From: a virus
DNA length: 23,612 nt
Virus record (IMG/VR): IMGVR_UViG_3300006925_000153
Location: 1-23,612 of that record
Strand: one strand, 5' to 3'
Under the pieces are notes generated by a model that ran no database searches, was not told the origin of the DNA, and worked only from the letters and a program-made list of their open reading frames with translations. Shown here in pieces: positions 8,835 through 23,612 of the stretch; the stretch's first letter is position 1, and each line of letters begins with the position of its first letter. The translations under genes and the position numbers were made by a program.

Positions 8835-9185
8835 TTATGTTTCTGGAGCAGAAGAATCAAACGTGACTCCAGGTGTAACGTCAATCTGCCCTTCTAAAAC
8901 CCTTGTTATTACAGAAGGATTATCAGGAGACACAATAATAATATCATACACATACCGGCCAGGTTTTAGCCCTGCAGTTTGTTGTGCGGTTAAGTTAATA
9001 GTTACTACCTTAGACGTACTATCAACAGATGCAGTGAATGTCGCCTTTGTTGATCCATCATATGATTTAGCAACCTTACCTGCAGCAGTATAATTAGTAA
9101 GTATTAAACCTGGAGTATCGGATAGATCAATCGTCGTATTAAAGTTCGACCCTTGATCTATGAATAAGTTTGAAAATGTTGCCAT
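8835..9185 (-). CDS. Small beta-sandwich virion protein (116 aa)
   Basis: The sequence alternates polar and hydrophobic residues as in an immunoglobulin-like or baseplate upper-protein (BppU-type) N-terminal fold: an opening IDQGSNFNTTIDL, a middle VVTINLTAQQT, then LKPGRYVYDIIIV and a last strand RVLEGQIDVTPGVT. The 'LxPGxYxYDI ... GxxxVxPxVT' pattern recurs in small phage virion proteins. It has no Cys, no signal peptide and no membrane segment. It sits 4 bases after the 317-aa gene's stop and 7 bases before the 127-aa start, so it is cotranslated with them. The likely role is an adaptor between the baseplate and a fibre; this is inference from fold style and position. Confidence 0.7.
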   Translation of the reverse strand: MATFSNLFIDQGSNFNTTIDLSDTPGLILTNYTAAGKVAKSYDGSTKATFTASVDSTSKVVTINLTAQQTAGLKPGRYVYDIIIVSPDNPSVITRVLEGQIDVTPGVTFDSSAPET

Positions 9186-9189
9186 ATAA

Positions 9190-10143
9190 TTATCCGCGGA
9201 TGTGGTTTTCTATTTCGTATTGTGCTTCGTCAGGAGTAAAGTGATGTAAACTTGCGTTATTAGATCCTGTCATCGTCACCCATGGCAACTTAGTAATTGT
9301 TTTTGTTGATCCGGTAATACCGATACGTATATCCATTGAATAGCTTGGCACTACAGCGTAATCTTGAAAGTCGTAATCAGCAGCTGAAGATGAAATTGTT
9401 GCTTGCGGCAAAACAATGTGCATTTCGTTCTCATAATTCGAAATAGCAGATCCAAAGACTTTATTATTTTCCCAATCAATAACAATTGTTCCGAAAGTCA
9501 TTTCTTCAGAACTGTCCCCTCCAACATCCCAATTCCAACGGCATCTCATAATTGTTTTTTCAACATTAGAAGCGAATGTCATTGGAAGAATGTTTGCCCA
9601 ATCTAATGATGATGGAGCAGCCGTATTACTACTGTCGTAGATTCCCGCGGCTGCCAGGGTGCCGCCAAGGCCTGCTGAAGAAGGAGAGAGGGCTGTAGTA
9701 GAAGTAACACAACCAGCCAGCTCGTCGGCTGAATGTCCTGGAAAGCCAGTTCTTCTGTCCGAGGTGGCAGAAATCAGTCTATATGTTTTAGAAAATTTAA
9801 GACTATCAACGTAAGCTTCAATATGATCTTTAACAGCTTTAGATGTAGGAATTGTATCATCAGAATCTTGAAGACCTGATGCAGTAACATCAATTTCAAC
9901 CTGTGCAACATTGCCATTGCCCGATCCAACCTTACCTAAAAGTTTATTGCCTGCTACTTGTTGTACCTTACCAAGACCAATTGAGTTATTAGCAACATTA
10001 GAATTATCAACTTTATTCTCTAAAGAAGTTATTTTTTCGATGATGCCGTTCGTCTTCTTTCTCCAATCGTTTAGATTATCACTAAGTTCAACACCACCCG
10101 CTGGTGAGTCAAATATATCAAAATTTGTAGAATCCATTGCCAT
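9190..10143 (-). CDS. Outer-baseplate / fibre-socket candidate (317 aa)
   Basis: Residues of about 18-45 (VELSDNLNDWRKKTNGIIEKI) recall the short N-terminal helix of T4 baseplate proteins gp9 and gp10 (the 'INxxFxxxY' type), followed by a coiled-coil-like stretch. Residues of about 55-110 contain NSIGLGKVQQVAGNKLLGK and DDTIPTSKAVKDHIE, both common in phage fibres. The C-terminal 130 residues form an unfamiliar beta-rich domain (MRCRWNWDVGG ... TFGTIVIDW). By position, two genes after gp8, it could fill the role of T4 gp9, the socket for long tail fibres, but similarity at that level is not visible by eye. It has its own late-promoter-like element only 5 bases upstream of the ATG. Confidence 0.65.
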   Translation of the reverse strand: MAMDSTNFDIFDSPAGGVELSDNLNDWRKKTNGIIEKITSLENKVDNSNVANNSIGLGKVQQVAGNKLLGKVGSGNGNVAQVEIDVTASGLQDSDDTIPTSKAVKDHIEAYVDSLKFSKTYRLISATSDRRTGFPGHSADELAGCVTSTTALSPSSAGLGGTLAAAGIYDSSNTAAPSSLDWANILPMTFASNVEKTIMRCRWNWDVGGDSSEEMTFGTIVIDWENNKVFGSAISNYENEMHIVLPQATISSSAADYDFQDYAVVPSYSMDIRIGITGSTKTITKLPWVTMTGSNNASLHHFTPDEAQYEIENHIRG

Positions 10144-10147
10144 GTTA

Positions 10148-10336
10148 CTATTTATCTAATATTAAAGTGTTAAGTATTTGTTTTAGCTCGCTAATTTCAG
10201 TCTTTAGAGATTCTATTTCTTCTTCTTGAAACTGTTGTTTTTGACTATTTTTCTTTGCCGACATTCTTGCATTATAAGCCGATTCATCTTTATTAATAAG
10301 TACTCCTCGACTTTTTCTTATAAATTTGCTTTTCAT
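10148..10336 (-). CDS. Small coiled-coil protein (62 aa)
   Basis: The frame starts MKSKFIRKSRGVLINKD with a basic N-terminus. Residues 36-60 form a clear heptad helix with hydrophobic a/d positions (IESLKTEISELKQILNTLI). Its ATG overlaps the TAA of the 1898-aa gene by one base (TAATG), the classic arrangement for translational coupling, and it ends 4 bases before the 317-aa gene. It is too small for an enzyme. A trimeric coiled-coil clip or an assembly helper for its large neighbour is plausible from position. Confidence 0.75.
   Translation of the reverse strand: MKSKFIRKSRGVLINKDESAYNARMSAKKNSQKQQFQEEEIESLKTEISELKQILNTLILDK
10149..10156 (-). promoter_or_regulatory. Late-promoter-like GATAAATA next to the start codon
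   Basis: The minus strand reads GATAAATAGTAAC directly before ATG. The octamer overlaps the last two codons and stop of the 62-aa gene and ends only 5 bases from the 317-aa start. If it is a promoter, the message would be leaderless or nearly so. Because the bases also encode Asp-Lys-stop, chance is a real alternative. Confidence 0.4.
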
Positions 10337-13300
10337 TATAGAGATGCAATAATTCTAAGGTTTTTAATTTCAGGGACGTAGGCCAGATTTGAAGATCTAA
10401 ACAGAATTTTAATAGCAACTTGATCAAATTCTTCGCCATCATTAGATGAACCTTCGTAATGTACTTCACCGAATTGATAGTTAGAACTCACTGGAACTAT
10501 ACTATCTGTTTCAATCTTAGTCCACGGAATAGCATCGAAAGATTTGCCAGAAGTTCTATCACCAAATCTAGCATAAACTTCAATCGATGTAGATTCATCT
10601 GGTCGAACAGCATCAAAGTAAACATCAACTTGATCAGAAGGATTTTCGAGTTTAACACTCTTTGTAATATACCTTGCAGCACATTGGCCGTCATCTTCTG
10701 TTGTTTCAAACTCGTTTGAGTCGTTAACAATATTATCAAATGTAACGAGGGAAATACGATCTAAATCGACCACCGGGGAAATTTTAGAATCGGTTGTAGT
10801 AAGCTCCGCTTGAAGTTTTAGCTGATCTATACCAGACTCACCGTGTCCACTATTAAAATCATGTGTAACACGCTTACCTGTATAAATCAATTCTCCGGGA
10901 AATACTGTATATGCATCAGTTGCACTATCATTTAATGTATAATCAACACTTACTTCAGGAAGAAGCATATCTTGAATAATAGGAAGATATGCAGAAGCTT
11001 TCCAAACATCTCTTTGGGCTTCGGCCGTTGCGGTTGAAACAGGAAGAAGGGTTTGTGGTGCTCCACCATTATCGGTTAAGGTAATTAATGCCCCTGGGCT
11101 TCCACTATTATCTGCTCTTAATTGAATTAGGTGGCTGTGAGAAACTTCATTTCCATTAGAGTCAACTGTTAATGCGTGGTATGTATCTCCGTCCGTTAAA
11201 CCACCAATTTCGTTTCCACCATTCTTTTTATAGGTAAATTGTTGACCGTTAACTGCTTCAAGGACATTAGAAGGAAGAATGATTCTATTATTAGGATGAT
11301 CAACACCTGTATCATCAGCTTTAATACTGATTTCACTAGGAGCAGCAATAACAACATCAGGAATAGATGTATAACCAGCGCCGTTTGTTACAACTTCGAT
11401 ATAATCAATAACTCCTCCTTTTTTAATAAAGGCTTTAGCAGTTGCTTGATTTTCACTTGTAGCTCCTCCACTTGTTACTCCTCCAATAGTTATTTTAGGA
11501 GGACCACCAAGATAACCAGAACCTCCGTTAGTAACATTAATGTATGTGACTTGCCCTCTTTGTGGTGAAAGGCCTGTGAACAATCCTGTCTGAGAAGTGG
11601 TTTTAAAATCAGCCCTGTTTAGTGTAAACTTAAGATCTTTATTTTGATCAGGTGTCCATGTTGATGCGTTCTGACTCTTAAGAAGAACACCCATATTGAC
11701 ATTCTTATTAATAGTTTCAGCATTTGTTCCAACATCTGTGCCACCAACCTCAGCGTGCCATACTCTGTATCTTGCGCTATTTGATATTAGAACGATAGCA
11801 TATTCAACACCAGGCTGTAAGTAAACTGGTGTATCAAACATAAACTTTGTTGCCAATGCCGCAGTAGCATTCGGAATGACTGCTCCAGGAAGCTTAGTTA
11901 CTCGTGAGAATGGAATTGTTTTTTGTGTAGGAATTCCATTCTCAACCGAAACAATACTCAGTTCAACAGGTAAGTTAGGATCTCTTTCTTGGAAGAAAAT
12001 ATCAACTGAAGAAAGGAAAATGCCGGTAGGCTCATTTCCAATCATAAATGTTTGTGCAATAGGATCTCTACGAACCACACGTGAACTTATTAGCACGTTT
12101 CTTCTTTCTTGAAGACGTGTTCTTTCTAATACAAGCTGCCGCGTTGAAAGAATTGTTTGTTGACGAGTTTCTAATAATCCTTTAGCATGGTAAGTACTTT
12201 CAGCCGAGGAAAGTTCTAAAACTCTGTTATTAAGTGCACTGTCGGTGAGTCGAACTTGTCGTGAACCTGTACGGAACCTGAGAACATCGTTATTAGGAAT
12301 AACAAACCAACCATCAACTTCACCAGCATCATCTGAAACTATTCCTGAGTTAATTGACGGTGTAGCTCCTGGTGACATAAGAGCAGGTCCTTCTAGGCCT
12401 TCGTATCTTGTAACATCTGTTCCTCCTACGGCCGCAACCTCACCTCCGAATTGAACAAATGCTTCATCGTCAGTAGCGTAAGATGTAATGTTAACATCAT
12501 CAAAATAAAGGAAGAAAGTAGTATTCGGCTTAAGCATACTTGCTTTAAAGTGCACCTTTCGAGAACGAATAAATGGAACAAAGGTGACATTCAATACTCT
12601 ATCATCAATTACTTCTCTTTGGAAGTTTTCTACAAGAGATGTTTGGATACCTTCTCGCAATTCTCTACGGAATGTGTCGATACGTCTCCTTCTTCGGGAA
12701 ACGCGTGTCCTTGTGCTAAACGTATCTGTTCTTCCCGTTCTATTCCAGAATGACCACCGAGCTGGTGACCATTCACTTTCCCATTCATTCCACTCTGTGC
12801 CTAATATGTTTGGATCATTTGCAATCTGTTGTATAACAGCGCTATTATCACCGTCAATGTTTGTGATAATTTCAGGAACATTATTAACGTCTTTCCATTC
12901 ATCACTAGATGGTGAAAGTTCAAGGTTCCCGCTCCAAGTTGCAACATCATAAGGATTAACACTAATGTGATCTGAAGCATATGGTTGATCAACTAGTACC
13001 TTTTCAATAAAGTCAAGTGTAAGAGAATTTTTACGTTTTCCAGAATATGATGTAGTTGAAATGGTCTCACCGTTCCAAGAACTAACAGGCTCTCCGTTCC
13101 CACCCATTCCGCTAATATAACTCCACCGAGCATTATCGGAAAGATACATCGGACGTGCTGTAAAGTTATCTCGATCAATTGCAGCGCGATAACCAGAACT
13201 ATTAGTATCTCCAACGCCGTGTCCTCTAAACGAATCAGTAATAATACCACCTTTAAATCTTGGAAGACCGTCACCATCGTTGATTTGTGTTTCAGTAGCT

Positions 13301-18817: not shown

Positions 18818-20614
18818 CTAGCGAGGTGTTGTTACATAATCATCTATACCTGAGGTTCCTCGGGTTGCGATAGTGTCGACAGTAGATGTAATATTAGTGT
18901 TTTGTAAATCAATTTCGATTATTTGATTTCTCTTAGGTGCGATGTCATTTGATTCGGGTCTAGCGAATAAAGTAATTATCGTATCTGTGTCAACATTAAA
19001 ATCATTAATTTCTATAATACCTGTTGAGGTATCAATTGTTCCAACATTTCTAGCATCTACAACTTTAACCCCGTCAGAACTAAAAAAGCAGCGCGATATG
19101 CTACGAATATTTTCAACACTTGTTTCTTCATCCTGTAAGTAGTATGTGATTCCTCCACTTACAAAACCGCTTGTTGAGATTAAAGACTCTGTAGGATCAG
19201 AAGGATTATCAAGAGGGAAATTGAATTCTAATTTGTATGTTGTCGTATTTGCGTTTCTAGCTATGAATTTTTTCAAACAATAAACACGGGCGTATGAACT
19301 AACGATAGAAGGATCTAAGTCACTAATGTATTCTAAGAATTGCGAGTAGCGGAATACTCCATCGAATGTTTCAAGATTGTCGTCGCTAAACTTTGAAACA
19401 CCATCTCTGACTAACGCTGAAATGCTACCAGCACCTTTATTTGTAGTAGCAGAGTTGTAGTTAACAAAAATATCAAAATAAATAAATGTAAATTCAGGAT
19501 CTACGAATTTTGGTCGAACAGTTAAAATACCTTTTGAATCTAAGATAGGAAGTAACGTATTTTTTTCTGTTTCTGTAAGTGTTGCCGCATTTGCTGGTTT
19601 AGCTGAAATAAATACTCGGCCGTATTCTGGAGGATCGTTATCTTCTCCGCCCCATACTGAAATTGCTACTGCTGTTGAGTTAGAACGAATTAATGCTTTA
19701 TAGTCATCAGTTGTAACTGCTCGGTTTTGGGAAAGAAATTGTAAAGGCGCGTTTGATCGAATACTTTCAACACTTTCCTTGCTGCCTCCACCTGAAGATG
19801 CCCCCGCAATACTAATTGTTGGTGCGGGCGATAAGCTAGTGTTTGTAAATACAGAAACTCCATTTGCTGCAGCACCTTTTGTGGAAAGATATTTAATTTG
19901 TATAACAGAACCTGGGAGAGGTTTCTTACCAATAACATTGTCTCCAAACGAGATTTCAAATCTTCCGTTAGGATTTTCATTAATAAAGTAAACATTTGAA
20001 TTGCCATCAATTCCAGGCAACTCAGAAAATTGTGTGTATGTTTCTGTTTGTGTAGTACCGATTGAATCACTTACGCTAACAACAATTTTTGAACGATCAA
20101 CATTGACATCTGGTATTTCAAATTTAAGGTTTGCTACTTTATCATCAAAAAGATATTCCTTTCTTTTAATTGCACCTTCATGCGCAGAAAACGGCAAAGT
20201 AGGATTGTCAACATCATCAAATACAACAAACGAATATGATTGATTATTAAGAGTATCAGTTGCTGTAAATGTTGTACCTTCTTTAATTTCTGTAATAGAA
20301 GAATCTAAATTGCTTAATGTTATTGTGATAGCAGCAGCAGAAACACTTTTTGGTGTGTACCCTAATGATTTCGCACGAGCTACAACATTCTTACGAAGTT
20401 GGGCCGAAGAAATAAATGTTTCATTCGCAGCAAGGTGTGCAAGAACAGCATTATAGTGTGTGTTATGGGCAAGGATGTCAAGAATAAGATTTAAACCAGA
20501 ACCATCAAAATCAAAATCCTTAAATGGACTATCAGTAAGTTTATAGTAATTTTTAATTTCGTCTTTAATCGAATCGAAATCAAGTTCAGTAATATTGAAT
20601 TGTTTAATGGCCAT
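18818..20614 (-). CDS. gp6: Baseplate wedge subunit gp6 (baseplate J family)
   Basis: gp6 forms the inner ring of the T4-type baseplate that holds the wedges together and moves during sheath contraction. The length (598 aa) is near T4's 660. Landmarks of the gp6 / baseplate-J family are GRFEISFGDNVIGKKP around residues 219-235 and SIRSNAPLQFLSQNRAVT followed by TDDYKALI around 280-308. The N-terminal part (LILDILAHNTHYNAVLAHLA, residues of about 45-64) is also typical. The gene sits 5 bases downstream of gp25 and 5 bases upstream of gp7 and is probably cotranscribed with both from the promoter at 21069-21076. Confidence 0.93.
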   Translation of the reverse strand: MAIKQFNITELDFDSIKDEIKNYYKLTDSPFKDFDFDGSGLNLILDILAHNTHYNAVLAHLAANETFISSAQLRKNVVARAKSLGYTPKSVSAAAITITLSNLDSSITEIKEGTTFTATDTLNNQSYSFVVFDDVDNPTLPFSAHEGAIKRKEYLFDDKVANLKFEIPDVNVDRSKIVVSVSDSIGTTQTETYTQFSELPGIDGNSNVYFINENPNGRFEISFGDNVIGKKPLPGSVIQIKYLSTKGAAANGVSVFTNTSLSPAPTISIAGASSGGGSKESVESIRSNAPLQFLSQNRAVTTDDYKALIRSNSTAVAISVWGGEDNDPPEYGRVFISAKPANAATLTETEKNTLLPILDSKGILTVRPKFVDPEFTFIYFDIFVNYNSATTNKGAGSISALVRDGVSKFSDDNLETFDGVFRYSQFLEYISDLDPSIVSSYARVYCLKKFIARNANTTTYKLEFNFPLDNPSDPTESLISTSGFVSGGITYYLQDEETSVENIRSISRCFFSSDGVKVVDARNVGTIDTSTGIIEINDFNVDTDTIITLFARPESNDIAPKRNQIIEIDLQNTNITSTVDTIATRGTSGIDDYVTTPR

Positions 20615-20619
20615 AGTTT

Positions 20620-21063
20620 TTATCTAATTCGGTCGAGGTAAAAAGACACCTCGGTGTTTATATTTGTATTCCTTATTTGAAAAATGATAGTTGCAAGAAG
20701 TCTGTTATAATCTGCATCCAATTGTATTTCAACCTTTGGATCAGTGACACGAGGTTCGTGTTCTTTGATAACACGAAGCACTTCGTCTCGTATACCAAGA
20801 GCTGTGAATTGATCAGTGTTTTCGAAAAGATATTGTGTAACATTACACCCAAGTTCAGGGTGAAACGGCCGGTCGGAAAAATTACTTAGCACAAGTATCT
20901 TAACAGCTTGTCGTATTGCCTGAATATCTGTAACAGGACGAATGTCTTTTGTGTTTGGATGAGGAATAAAATTAAGTGGGATGTCAGCAAAAAGACCAGA
21001 AGAGTCTACAGCAAGATCTCTTGGTGCTTGCTCGTTAACATTGAAATCTGATCTTAATCCCAT
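20620..21063 (-). CDS. gp25: Baseplate wedge subunit gp25
   Basis: gp25 is a small core wedge protein that clamps the gp6-gp7 bundle and starts sheath polymerisation. This 147-aa protein has the family marks: FSDRPFHPELGCNVTQYLFEN at about residues 61-81, where the RPFxPExG segment is diagnostic, and the later EPRV motif (residues of about 101-104). Length is close to T4 gp25 (132 aa). Being next to gp6 differs from T4, where gene 25 lies in another cluster, but agrees with marine T4-like and many other contractile systems. It starts 5 bases after a perfect TATAAATA. Confidence 0.93.
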   Translation of the reverse strand: MGLRSDFNVNEQAPRDLAVDSSGLFADIPLNFIPHPNTKDIRPVTDIQAIRQAVKILVLSNFSDRPFHPELGCNVTQYLFENTDQFTALGIRDEVLRVIKEHEPRVTDPKVEIQLDADYNRLLATIIFQIRNTNINTEVSFYLDRIR

Positions 21064-21068
21064 ATTAC

Positions 21069-21076
21069 TATTTATA
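21069..21076 (-). promoter_or_regulatory. T4-type late promoter TATAAATA next to the gp25 start
   Basis: The minus strand reads TATAAATAGTAAT then ATG of gp25. The octamer overlaps the stop of the 141-aa gene. With T4-like initiation spacing the transcript would start at or within a base or two of the ATG, giving a leaderless gp25 message. Confidence 0.55.
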
Positions 21077-21497
21077 TCGAAACTACCCCGATTACGTCAG
21101 GAAGATTACCTTCTCTTAATATTAATTCTTCATATAATCGAATACCTTCTTTTACATTCACCTTTGGATCAAGAAGCTCCCGAATATTCACATTTGGACA
21201 GGTCAGTGGATTAATACTAAACAGGCCTAAGCGTTGAACTTCTTTCAAATTGCCTGTTGAGGAATATGATCGAGTGGTTGTTATAAAGTTTGCGTTTAAC
21301 TTCGAAGACTTTTTCATAAGAGATATGAAGTAGTTCGCATATTCTTCAGGATCACCATTAGTGACTTTATGGACTACTGAATTTCCAGGAACAAATTTAT
21401 TGAGCTTCGATGCACGAACTCTTTCTTCGATTTCAACACGAAGAAACTTTTCCCGCACAATTCCATTTACATCTGGTTTAAGATAGATTGATTTCAT
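21072..21497 (-). CDS. Unidentified virion-region protein (141 aa)
   Basis: I do not recognise this protein. It is a mixed alpha/beta sequence starting MKSIYLKPDVNGIVREKFLR. It has a central helix (YANYFISLMKKSSKL), a basic Ser/Thr stretch (FITTTRSYSSTGNLKE), and an end with RELLDPKVNVKEGIRLYEEL. It has no membrane segment or signal peptide. It lies between the hub/lysin gene (32-base gap) and gp25 (8-base gap). T4 has gene 53 in this general neighbourhood, but the sequence shows none of the gp53 features I know. A small baseplate or hub-wedge connector is the best guess from position. Confidence 0.75.
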   Translation of the reverse strand: MKSIYLKPDVNGIVREKFLRVEIEERVRASKLNKFVPGNSVVHKVTNGDPEEYANYFISLMKKSSKLNANFITTTRSYSSTGNLKEVQRLGLFSINPLTCPNVNIRELLDPKVNVKEGIRLYEELILREGNLPDVIGVVSI

Positions 21498-21529: not shown

Positions 21530-23612
21530 TTACCCCGCTATTTCAAGGTGCGGTCCATCGTAAAAGGTCTTAAAGTCACCACCCCACTTAACTGTTACAC
21601 CTTGCTCTCTACCAGCTTGTTGAAATAATCTAGCCATTTTTTCTAACTCAACTGGATCATATAATGTACCCTTAGGATTACGGTTATTGATACCTTTGCC
21701 CTTTTGCCACACGATATCAATTGCGCGACCTGTTTGATGCTTAGATCGTCCACCTCTCACGTATGTTACAATCGGTCCTGGTGTAGTTCGGCCCTGAGCA
21801 TATAATTGATTCTGTCTTTCTGGAGAACGATACCCTTCAGTAATTCGGAAGTCTGCTCCTAATTCTCTTGCTCTTTTTATTATCGAAGGCCATCTTGGAT
21901 CTAACCCTTCTTCAGCTTTCGCTTGAGGTGTTGCAGTGCTTGTTACAGGAGTAGAATCTTTTTTCGCTTGAGGTGTTGCAGTGCCTCTTACACGAGTAGA
22001 ATCTATTTCCCCCGCAGTAATTTGTTCAACAATGGCAAGAAGACCTACTACTAATATTTTCTCGTCAATAAGACTATGAAGTTTATTAATAAGTTTATCA
22101 AAGAAGTTTACGTCGTCTTGATCTACAGTACTAACGATAGCGCCTGGATAAAGCGCACCCTTTTCAACATATTCAACAGGAGTCCATAATTGAACAGACT
22201 TTATATCAGGAGTGATTTGTGAATTAGTTGATTTAAATAGTGCATTTTCGATTTGTTCTCTTGCTCCAGCAACTAATGATTCAAAATATTGTATTCTATA
22301 ATAATCTTTAAAGGTATCCTTTTCTTCTAATTTTAGCCATGTTTGCAAGCCCTGGATGCTTCCCTGCGCCTTCGCCGTCTGATATTCAGGCGTGTGAAGC
22401 AGGCGATCATGTCTTGTTGTAATCGGTTCCTTCTCAGAATAATTTACACCTTCTGTCTTATTTTGGTTCGCTGTGGTGTTATCCGGTCTAAATCCTGTCG
22501 GATTACTACGAACTTCGTCATTCGTTCTATTTCCACCTGTAATATCAACAGCGTCTTGACCACGTGTTAAGCCTTGCCTTTTAAAATTGTAGATTTCTTC
22601 GAGCCCTCCGGTCTGTTTTCCAAACTCATCGAATTTAACGTTCTCGGCACTAATACGAATCGATTCTATCTCAGGATCTCCGAGATAAAACCCTTCTGCT
22701 GTCGGAATGTTATCTTTGGGATCCCTTATAATACGGTTGACACCCGCGTCATCGATATAAGATGCTATTCCCGTTACTGGGTCAATAAAATCTGCTGCTG
22801 AATTGCTCGTAAAAGCGCCCATTCCATCGAAGCTTTTTGGAATATTATCTTCCCCCAAAATATTTGCTAAATCGATTCCTGCCTGATCGACATCTGAAAT
22901 AGGCTCAATAGATCCACTATTCGAAGATTGAGAACCAAATTGAATAAAAGGATCCAATAACAACTTTCTCCACTCCTCATTATAGATCTCGCGAGCAGCT
23001 CTCGCCATTTCCTCGTTATAACCAGTATTGTTTTGTACATCATCCTGCGACACACTATCCTGAGGCATTGGTCTTATAAATCCTCGCTCGGCCGGCACGA
23101 TAGGCCTATCTGGCGGACTCGGAGCTTTTTCCTTCTTGACTAATTTACCATCATCATCTGTCTTAGCCTTATCAGTAACAAACTGACATATATCGAATCC
23201 TCCGAGGTTCCTCACACTATCAATGACACCTTCGATATCGTCAACAAGACCATCCCACTTTTCTACTAACTTCTGATACGCATCTTCTCCTTTATCCTTT
23301 AGATCACTAATATCCTTAGCCAGATTTTCTATTTCAGTAGTGTCTGGTAGCATGTCATTTAAACCGTCCTTAAACCCCTGGACCATTTCGTCGATTTTAG
23401 AAAGGCCTATTGAGTCCACTGCGGAGTCGACTGCTGCCTTCACACTATTCTTTAATTCGTTGATTGATGGTATATCTATGTCACCGACTTTAAGACCTAA
23501 GTCTGCAAGGTTACCACACTTAGTTATATCTAAACCTGGGAACGCACCAGCGACTGCACCATACACAGCTAATGCATCTTCTAAACTTGGTGTATCGTCA
23601 AAGCCATCACCA
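21530..23612 (-). CDS. Baseplate hub / tail lysin with C-terminal M15-type peptidase, 5' end cut by window edge
   Basis: The frame stays open from the TAA at 21530 to the right edge. A GTG at 23566 is only an internal valine candidate, because in-frame sequence (GDGFDDTPSLEDALAV) continues upstream of it. The C-terminal domain (21533 to about 21905) has the zinc-peptidase pattern of the M15 / L-Ala-D-Glu endopeptidase group: EGYRSPERQNQLYAQGRT, SKHQTGRAIDIVW (zinc-binding His and Asp) and WGGDFKTFYDGPHLEI (third ligand His). It would cut peptide cross-links in peptidoglycan. Before it lies a Thr/Pro-rich linker with a 15-residue tandem repeat. The N-terminal part has helical, coiled-coil-like sequence (LAKDISDLKDKGEDAYQKLVE). 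Its position beside gp25 and gp6 suggests the role of T4 gp5, which instead carries a lysozyme-type glycosidase. A free endolysin is unlikely at this size. Confidence 0.8.
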   Translation of the reverse strand, partial: GDGFDDTPSLEDALAVYGAVAGAFPGLDITKCGNLADLGLKVGDIDIPSINELKNSVKAAVDSAVDSIGLSKIDEMVQGFKDGLNDMLPDTTEIENLAKDISDLKDKGEDAYQKLVEKWDGLVDDIEGVIDSVRNLGGFDICQFVTDKAKTDDDGKLVKKEKAPSPPDRPIVPAERGFIRPMPQDSVSQDDVQNNTGYNEEMARAAREIYNEEWRKLLLDPFIQFGSQSSNSGSIEPISDVDQAGIDLANILGEDNIPKSFDGMGAFTSNSAADFIDPVTGIASYIDDAGVNRIIRDPKDNIPTAEGFYLGDPEIESIRISAENVKFDEFGKQTGGLEEIYNFKRQGLTRGQDAVDITGGNRTNDEVRSNPTGFRPDNTTANQNKTEGVNYSEKEPITTRHDRLLHTPEYQTAKAQGSIQGLQTWLKLEEKDTFKDYYRIQYFESLVAGAREQIENALFKSTNSQITPDIKSVQLWTPVEYVEKGALYPGAIVSTVDQDDVNFFDKLINKLHSLIDEKILVVGLLAIVEQITAGEIDSTRVRGTATPQAKKDSTPVTSTATPQAKAEEGLDPRWPSIIKRARELGADFRITEGYRSPERQNQLYAQGRTTPGPIVTYVRGGRSKHQTGRAIDIVWQKGKGINNRNPKGTLYDPVELEKMARLFQQAGREQGVTVKWGGDFKTFYDGPHLEIAG
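21918..22007 (-). repeat. Two tandem 45-bp repeats in the peptidase linker
   Basis: Bases 21918-21962 and 21963-22007 are adjacent copies differing at 4 of 45 positions by eye. They encode DSTRVRGTATPQAKK and DSTPVTSTATPQAKA. The first 22 bases of each copy are identical, which points to a recent in-frame duplication that lengthened the linker ahead of the peptidase domain. Confidence 0.9.

Follow-up and report, generated by a model that had tools for sequence, protein, structure and literature searches.

What kind of protein carries the peptidase encoded at the end of this virus contig, and is it the tail spike gp5 with its lysozyme exchanged for another enzyme? The window, by which we mean the whole stretch of DNA that was analysed, is an entire IMG/VR record of 23,612 bp and represents a fragment of a virus genome. 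An earlier note had placed its last gene at a hub position comparable to that of gp5 and had proposed a modular exchange of lysin chemistry. We consider it probable that the gene encodes a tail-tip (hub) protein of a T4-like phage that carries the entry lysin, next to a gp5 without lysozyme, and that its M15C peptidase domain replaced an ancestral LAS-fold domain. The domain and its active-site residues, the gene order, the gp5 without lysozyme, and the domain replacement with its direction are all read from sequence.

The Window Gene Ends in an M15C-Type Peptidase Domain

On the minus strand, 693 codons are open from 23611 to 21533, followed by a stop codon at 21530-21532. The 5′ end of the gene is the end of the contig, and the first ∼290 residues, which make up the N-terminal domain, fall beyond it. 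The M15 peptidase occupies the last ∼124 residues. In Pfam, the window protein matched PF13539 (E 3.1e-9, 37.7 bits) and the VanY family PF02557 (E 8.1e-8, 32.6 bits), each with a curated cut-off of 25; in PHROGs, the C-terminal domain matched phrog_465 (E 2.5e-31). Matches in the PDB were Ply500 (2vo9, E 2.2e-17), LysB4 (6akv, 2.1e-14), and EndoRB49 (23ri, 2.4e-14). The zinc ligands, catalytic aspartate, and essential tryptophan of such enzymes have been described for EndoT5 and EndoRB49 (PMC10487532). This M15C signature is complete in the window protein, with the H, D, and H ligands, the W, and the catalytic D, which precedes the last H by three residues (Table 1). By these matches, the domain is of the M15C type (L-alanyl-D-glutamate peptidase-like), with hydrolytic activity predicted. 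The earlier note was therefore right that the gene ends in an M15-type peptidase with zinc ligands (PF13539, phrog_465, 2vo9; H625, D632, and H688). Its suggestion that the tail would cut peptide cross-links is inexact: the nearest enzymes to have been characterised are L-Ala-D-Glu endopeptidases, which cut within the stem peptide and strip stem peptides, cross-linked ones too, rather than cutting the cross-bridge itself.

Directly ahead of the domain, the linker is duplicated (2 × 45 bp, 91% matches), as the earlier note had reported. Only the window's own type has the duplication; the sister loci L005 and L006 share the domain and have one copy, which separates the duplication from the exchange to which it had been tied. 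Farther toward the N terminus, the first part of the window protein is probably helical according to a low-confidence model. An AF2 prediction of the full 986-aa protein together with nine homologues reached a pLDDT of 38, and the model was set aside.

Table 1. Features of the window around the peptidase gene
Feature	Position in window	Strand	Basis
gp6 baseplate wedge protein	18818..20614	-	PF21379 E 4.8e-14, phrog_219 E 5.8e-142
gp25 baseplate wedge protein	20620..21063	-	PF04965 E 3.1e-13, phrog_261
Conserved 141-aa ORF in the interval between peptidase gene and gp25	21072..21497	-	ORF; no family
5′-truncated gene of the putative tail-tip peptidase protein	21530..23611	-	ORF; 693 of about 986 residues, stop included
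C-terminal M15C-type zinc peptidase domain (predicted)	21533..21904	-	Pfam PF13539/PF02557, phrog_465, PDB 2vo9/6akv/23ri
Zinc ligand H688	21548..21550	-	Alignment to 23ri and 2vo9
Catalytic D685, DGPH motif	21557..21559	-	Alignment to 23ri and 2vo9
W676, conserved M15C tryptophan, KWGGD	21584..21586	-	PDB alignment, PMC10487532
Zinc ligand D632	21716..21718	-	Alignment to 23ri and 2vo9
Zinc ligand H625, SKHxxGxAID motif	21737..21739	-	Roles from PMC10487532
Thr/Pro/Ala/Gln-rich linker with in-frame 2 × 45-bp duplication, directly before peptidase	21917..22008	-	91% matches
Probably helical region, two invariant cysteines, D-x-x-x-D-G acidic loop at start	23126..23611	-	Alignments

The Complete Gene Follows a gp5 Gene Without Lysozyme

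A related record, L003, carries the gene complete (986 aa, 9122-12082), with one substitution over the 693 shared residues. A separate gp5 gene encoding 434 aa ends 15 bp upstream of it. Its product matched Gp5_OB (E 3e-16) and Gp5_trimer_C, the latter below cut-off, and phrog_430 ("hub and tail lysozyme") matched it in two stretches, the best of which covers profile positions 312 to 530. No lysozyme family matched this 434-aa gp5, and the lysozyme family PF00959 had no match in the L003, L005, or L006 records. By its domain content, the spike gp5 of the window lineage is a complete protein with OB fold and beta-helix that lacks a lysozyme. A complete gp5 also lies directly upstream of the peptidase gene in L005; in L006, the helix part of gp5 is found there. 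The 986-aa protein itself matched neither Gp5_OB or Phage_base_V nor Gp5_trimer_C or Gp5_C; the earlier note had looked to the missing 5′ part for a gp5-type OB fold and beta-helix, and both are absent from the complete copy.

On the 5′ side of gp5 in L003 lie a gp27-like hub gene, gp53, and the tail tube cap gene (gp48). The order gp48/gp53/gp27-like/gp5/peptidase gene/141-aa/gp25/gp6 was found, where covered, in L003, L005, L006, and their relatives, so that the peptidoglycan-hydrolase domain on a tail-block protein is here an M15C domain on the gene between gp5 and gp25. The hub position proposed by the earlier note stands insofar as the gene belongs to the baseplate-hub block, but a separate, complete gp5 lies upstream. 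The same note had named a separate gp5 lysozyme nearby as evidence against its reading; a separate gp5 does exist, but it is without lysozyme.

The small ORF between the peptidase gene and gp25 (140-141 aa; window 21072-21497) is kept wherever a locus spans the site, the deep L055 group among them. It matched no family in Pfam or PHROGs.

Relatives Carry a Different, Probably LAS-Fold Domain

Further loci were found using the alignment as query, and the deeper ones were reached through gp5. In eleven of them (L017, L019, L020, L021, L022, L024, L033, L048, L055, L057, and L059), the body of the protein is kept and the C-terminal domain is different. Scanning six relatives returned no Pfam or PHROG family for this other domain. 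Its motif, RHDxGxAAD...HxDI, resembles that of LAS peptidases, and a profile built from it matched EndoRB49 (23ri, E 0.0046). An AF2 model of the domain reached a pLDDT of 78.5 and a pTM of 0.79. Nearly all of its top structural matches were M15, LAS, or Hedgehog proteins (1lbu, Z 7.0; ChiX, 6.8; Hedgehog, 6.3; then MepA, VanX, and EndoT5; Z 5 to 7), and the best Foldseek match was LysB4 (E 5.2e-3). The Hedgehog fold is homologous to M15/LAS peptidases. Combining profile, motif, and fold, we regard the other domain as probably a LAS/M15-fold zinc peptidase, with support that is moderate because the Z scores are below 8, although the profile match helps.

Both zinc motifs, RH(D/N)xG(Y/F)AxD and H(L/V/I)D(I/V), occur in 63 of 66 loci with the domain; one of the remaining three is truncated, and two vary at the second motif. 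Direct comparison of the two peptidase types alone by hhalign was weak (E 0.017, probability 2.7), with the zinc motif aligned. Every complete homologue that we read ends in a LAS-fold domain with the zinc motif, and the LAS-fold peptidase family represented by the other domain is probably undescribed.

The Domain Was Exchanged at the Linker

The bodies of the L003 and L017 proteins are 67.5% identical over ∼490 residues, whereas their C-terminal domains align only marginally, scoring 54 against a best of 44 from 200 shuffles. Between L017 and L055, the C-terminal domains are 51% identical over 140 residues. The L019 and L020 proteins match the L003 protein to residues 827 and 813, respectively, and the M15C domain begins at residue 863; in window coordinates, homology to the relatives with the other peptidase domain stops about at the linker (21917..22008).

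To polarise the exchange, we used trees of gp6, gp25, gp5, and the 141-aa protein rooted on Pelagibacter and Methylophilales phages. Trees without the L055 group left the exchange unpolarised, and adding this group polarised it. The window clade is sister to L017 with support of 100/93, or 100/100 when the distant outgroup is left out, and the L055 group (L055/L057) is outermost (89.7/81), which leaves the window clade nested inside the set that carries the other domain. Because of this nesting, the simplest reading makes the M15C domain the derived state, a newcomer in the window lineage.

In IMG/VR, the closest M15C domain outside the clade is a 67% match that includes the GLDPRW start of the domain. 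It forms the C terminus of a 365-aa protein with a Phage_base_V OB domain on a 197-kb viral contig, and both states are therefore peptidase-like domains on proteins of the tail-tip type. Bacterial genomes searched for an M15C donor yielded one distant match, in Aneurinibacillus. As judged from these alignments and trees, the modular exchange proposed by the earlier note is real and took place at the linker, but another LAS-fold domain was replaced rather than a glycosidase. Since close relatives carry a LAS-fold domain at the same place, peptidase chemistry was probably kept across the exchange.

Entry Is the Likelier Role of the Peptidase

T4 gp5 works once the spike has reached the periplasm (PMC3004832), and it is by analogy with this protein that we propose a mechanism for a hub-associated peptidase. 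The hub would reach the periplasm on tail contraction, the linker-tethered peptidase would cut the stem peptides of peptidoglycan locally, and the tube would pass. In the window lineage, the ancestral, divergent LAS-fold domain would have been replaced at the linker by an M15C domain like that of another phage's OB-fold baseplate protein. Gene order supports the protein as a putative virion component; its presence in the virion, its location in the hub, its enzymatic activity, the exact bond cut, and its role in entry are what we infer.

Three relatives' records (G004, G007, and G009) contain a PF00959 lysozyme gene whose product has a hydrophobic N terminus, with an Amidase_2 gene directly after it; in G009, the amidase is read from sequence likeness alone. 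In G004 and G007, the pair lies ∼15 kb from the peptidase gene. This pair is plausibly a lysis cassette, seen in relatives, the contigs of the window lineage ending short of that region. Because relatives carry this separate pair, entry is likelier than lysis as the role of the peptidase. The M15 families matched in PHROGs are mostly annotated as endolysins, which is a point against entry. That the protein is a phage endolysin or another part of the lysis system, expressed late and acting outside the virion, would fit with the annotation of phrog_465 and its relatives and with free-standing M15C endolysins being common. Such a protein would hardly be expected to have ∼860 residues of conserved noncatalytic body or a fixed place between gp5 and gp25, and the relatives have their separate lysozyme and N-acetylmuramoyl-L-alanine amidase; we think this explanation quite unlikely. 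For the body, a tblastn search against 50,697 phage records returned chance matches only. A 507-position N-terminal profile found nothing convincing in the PDB and nothing in nine cultured phage records, the latter search being only suggestive, as it had no positive control. Thus, the cultured phages searched held no detectable homologue of the body.

The gene could also encode gp5 itself, an M15 peptidase having taken the place of the lysozyme. It sits in the same genomic neighbourhood, and other phages do have true gp5 proteins that end in a LAS domain (L186 and L187) or in which an M15-like domain follows the OB fold (Melnitz P0002). With a complete gp5 of its own immediately upstream in L003 and L005 (the helix part in L006) and no gp5 domain in its 986 residues, this identity is highly improbable. 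Another unlikely explanation is a receptor-facing, fibre-like protein of the baseplate whose N-terminal domain binds the surface and whose peptidase either plays an accessory part, clearing outer peptides, or has lost its catalytic activity. It draws on the N-terminal ∼290 residues, which occur as distinct alleles and are exchanged independently: L005 and L003 are 97% identical in the 165 residues after the N-terminal domain and 44.7% within it, and the N-terminal domain of L005 is nearer to those of L025 and L048 (55.7 and 53.0%). This pattern suggests a domain that is surface-facing and diversifying. Against a lost or accessory activity, no zinc or catalytic residue is missing, and every complete homologue read terminates in a LAS-fold domain that has the zinc motif. 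We therefore retain the hub protein with an entry lysin as the preferred reading.

The independently exchanged N-terminal domain corresponds to L005 2179-2991 and L003 9122-9988. Elsewhere in the relatives (L040 6753-7478 and 11199-11522, L041 7617-8024, and L042 1212-1670), the encoded products comprise small EF-hand-like proteins and one protein whose C terminus is PEP-CTERM-like (NCBIfam NF038120, E 0.0044, below cut-off). The PEP-CTERM-like and EF-hand-like proteins might point to the host group.

The Unannotated LAS Domain Occurs on gp5 Spikes and Other Proteins

We classified 66 loci as carrying the unannotated LAS domain, and 14 of them belong to the family of the 986-aa protein. A single-linkage cluster of 27, in which chaining is possible, includes the true gp5 spikes L186 and L187. 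These two matched Gp5_OB (E 2e-21 and 1e-21), carry the LAS domain at the C terminus, and have gp25 and gp6 as the next genes. The rest of the 66 have the domain on other proteins, several of them in baseplate blocks. In isolated phages, LAS-domain matches were weak and confined to tail or structural proteins of Rhizobium and Agrobacterium phages. The helical region showed weak, suggestive homology to a 407-aa LAS protein of L211 (hmmsearch E 0.03-0.08; hhalign E 0.08). We favour, if only by a little, the view that this unannotated LAS-fold zinc peptidase family is a general, movable C-terminal lysin module of marine T4-like tail-tip proteins, carried by gp5, by the product of the gene that follows it, and by further proteins of the baseplate block, and exchangeable for M15C, which would make peptidase a common entry chemistry.

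Long tail proteins with an internal, weak LAS match are encoded in Rhizobium phages, by RHph_TM30 (L038 6493-9705) and at L039 5117-7786. In Melnitz (EXVC044M; L009 10625-13668), gp5 is split into two ORFs with an M15-like domain on each, and the paper on this phage describes it as having no other lysin-like genes (PMC9004378). A similar split of gp5, into 95 aa (OB) and 303 aa, occurs in deep relatives (L066 5001-6196; also L064 and L065).

Comparison with Known Systems

Annotations of marine T4-like phages routinely call gp5 "tail lysozyme." Despite this label, gp5 has no lysozyme domain in the lineages read here. Our data indicate a possible location of the entry lysin and suggest a mobile zinc peptidase, moving among tail-tip genes. 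They also provide a testable set of unannotated enzymes. A tail-associated lysin is of a known kind, and the probably undescribed peptidase domain family is the newest part. A literature search, with most subscription journals outside its coverage, found no description of the arrangement.

The likeness to T4 gp5 is that of a tail-tip peptidoglycan hydrolase encoded in the hub/wedge block and probably used in entry. In T4, the glycosidase is inserted between the OB fold and the beta-helix of gp5 (PMC3004832), whereas the gp5 of the window lineage lacks this glycosidase and the next gene has a C-terminal zinc peptidase. With the M15C peptidases Ply500, LysB4, EndoT5, EndoRB49, and LysECD7, the window protein has in common the domain, the zinc ligands, the catalytic aspartate, and the tryptophan. 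Those enzymes are lysis endolysins, whereas the window's is the C-terminal domain of a ∼986-aa baseplate-block protein.

Cultured marine T4-like relatives infect Gram-negative hosts. Virion-associated lysins with endopeptidase activity resemble the proposed system in being tail-borne peptidases that open the wall locally. According to a 2018 review, endopeptidase domains in such lysins come almost exclusively from phages of Gram-positive bacteria (PMC6116005). If our reading is true, it would revise the picture of peptidase entry lysins as nearly confined to such phages. The Methylophilales phage Melnitz, a cultured marine T4-like phage, offers a further likeness in the M15-like domains on its spike pieces. 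There, the domains are on pieces of gp5, after the OB fold and after the helix, whereas in the window lineage, the domain is on a different protein.
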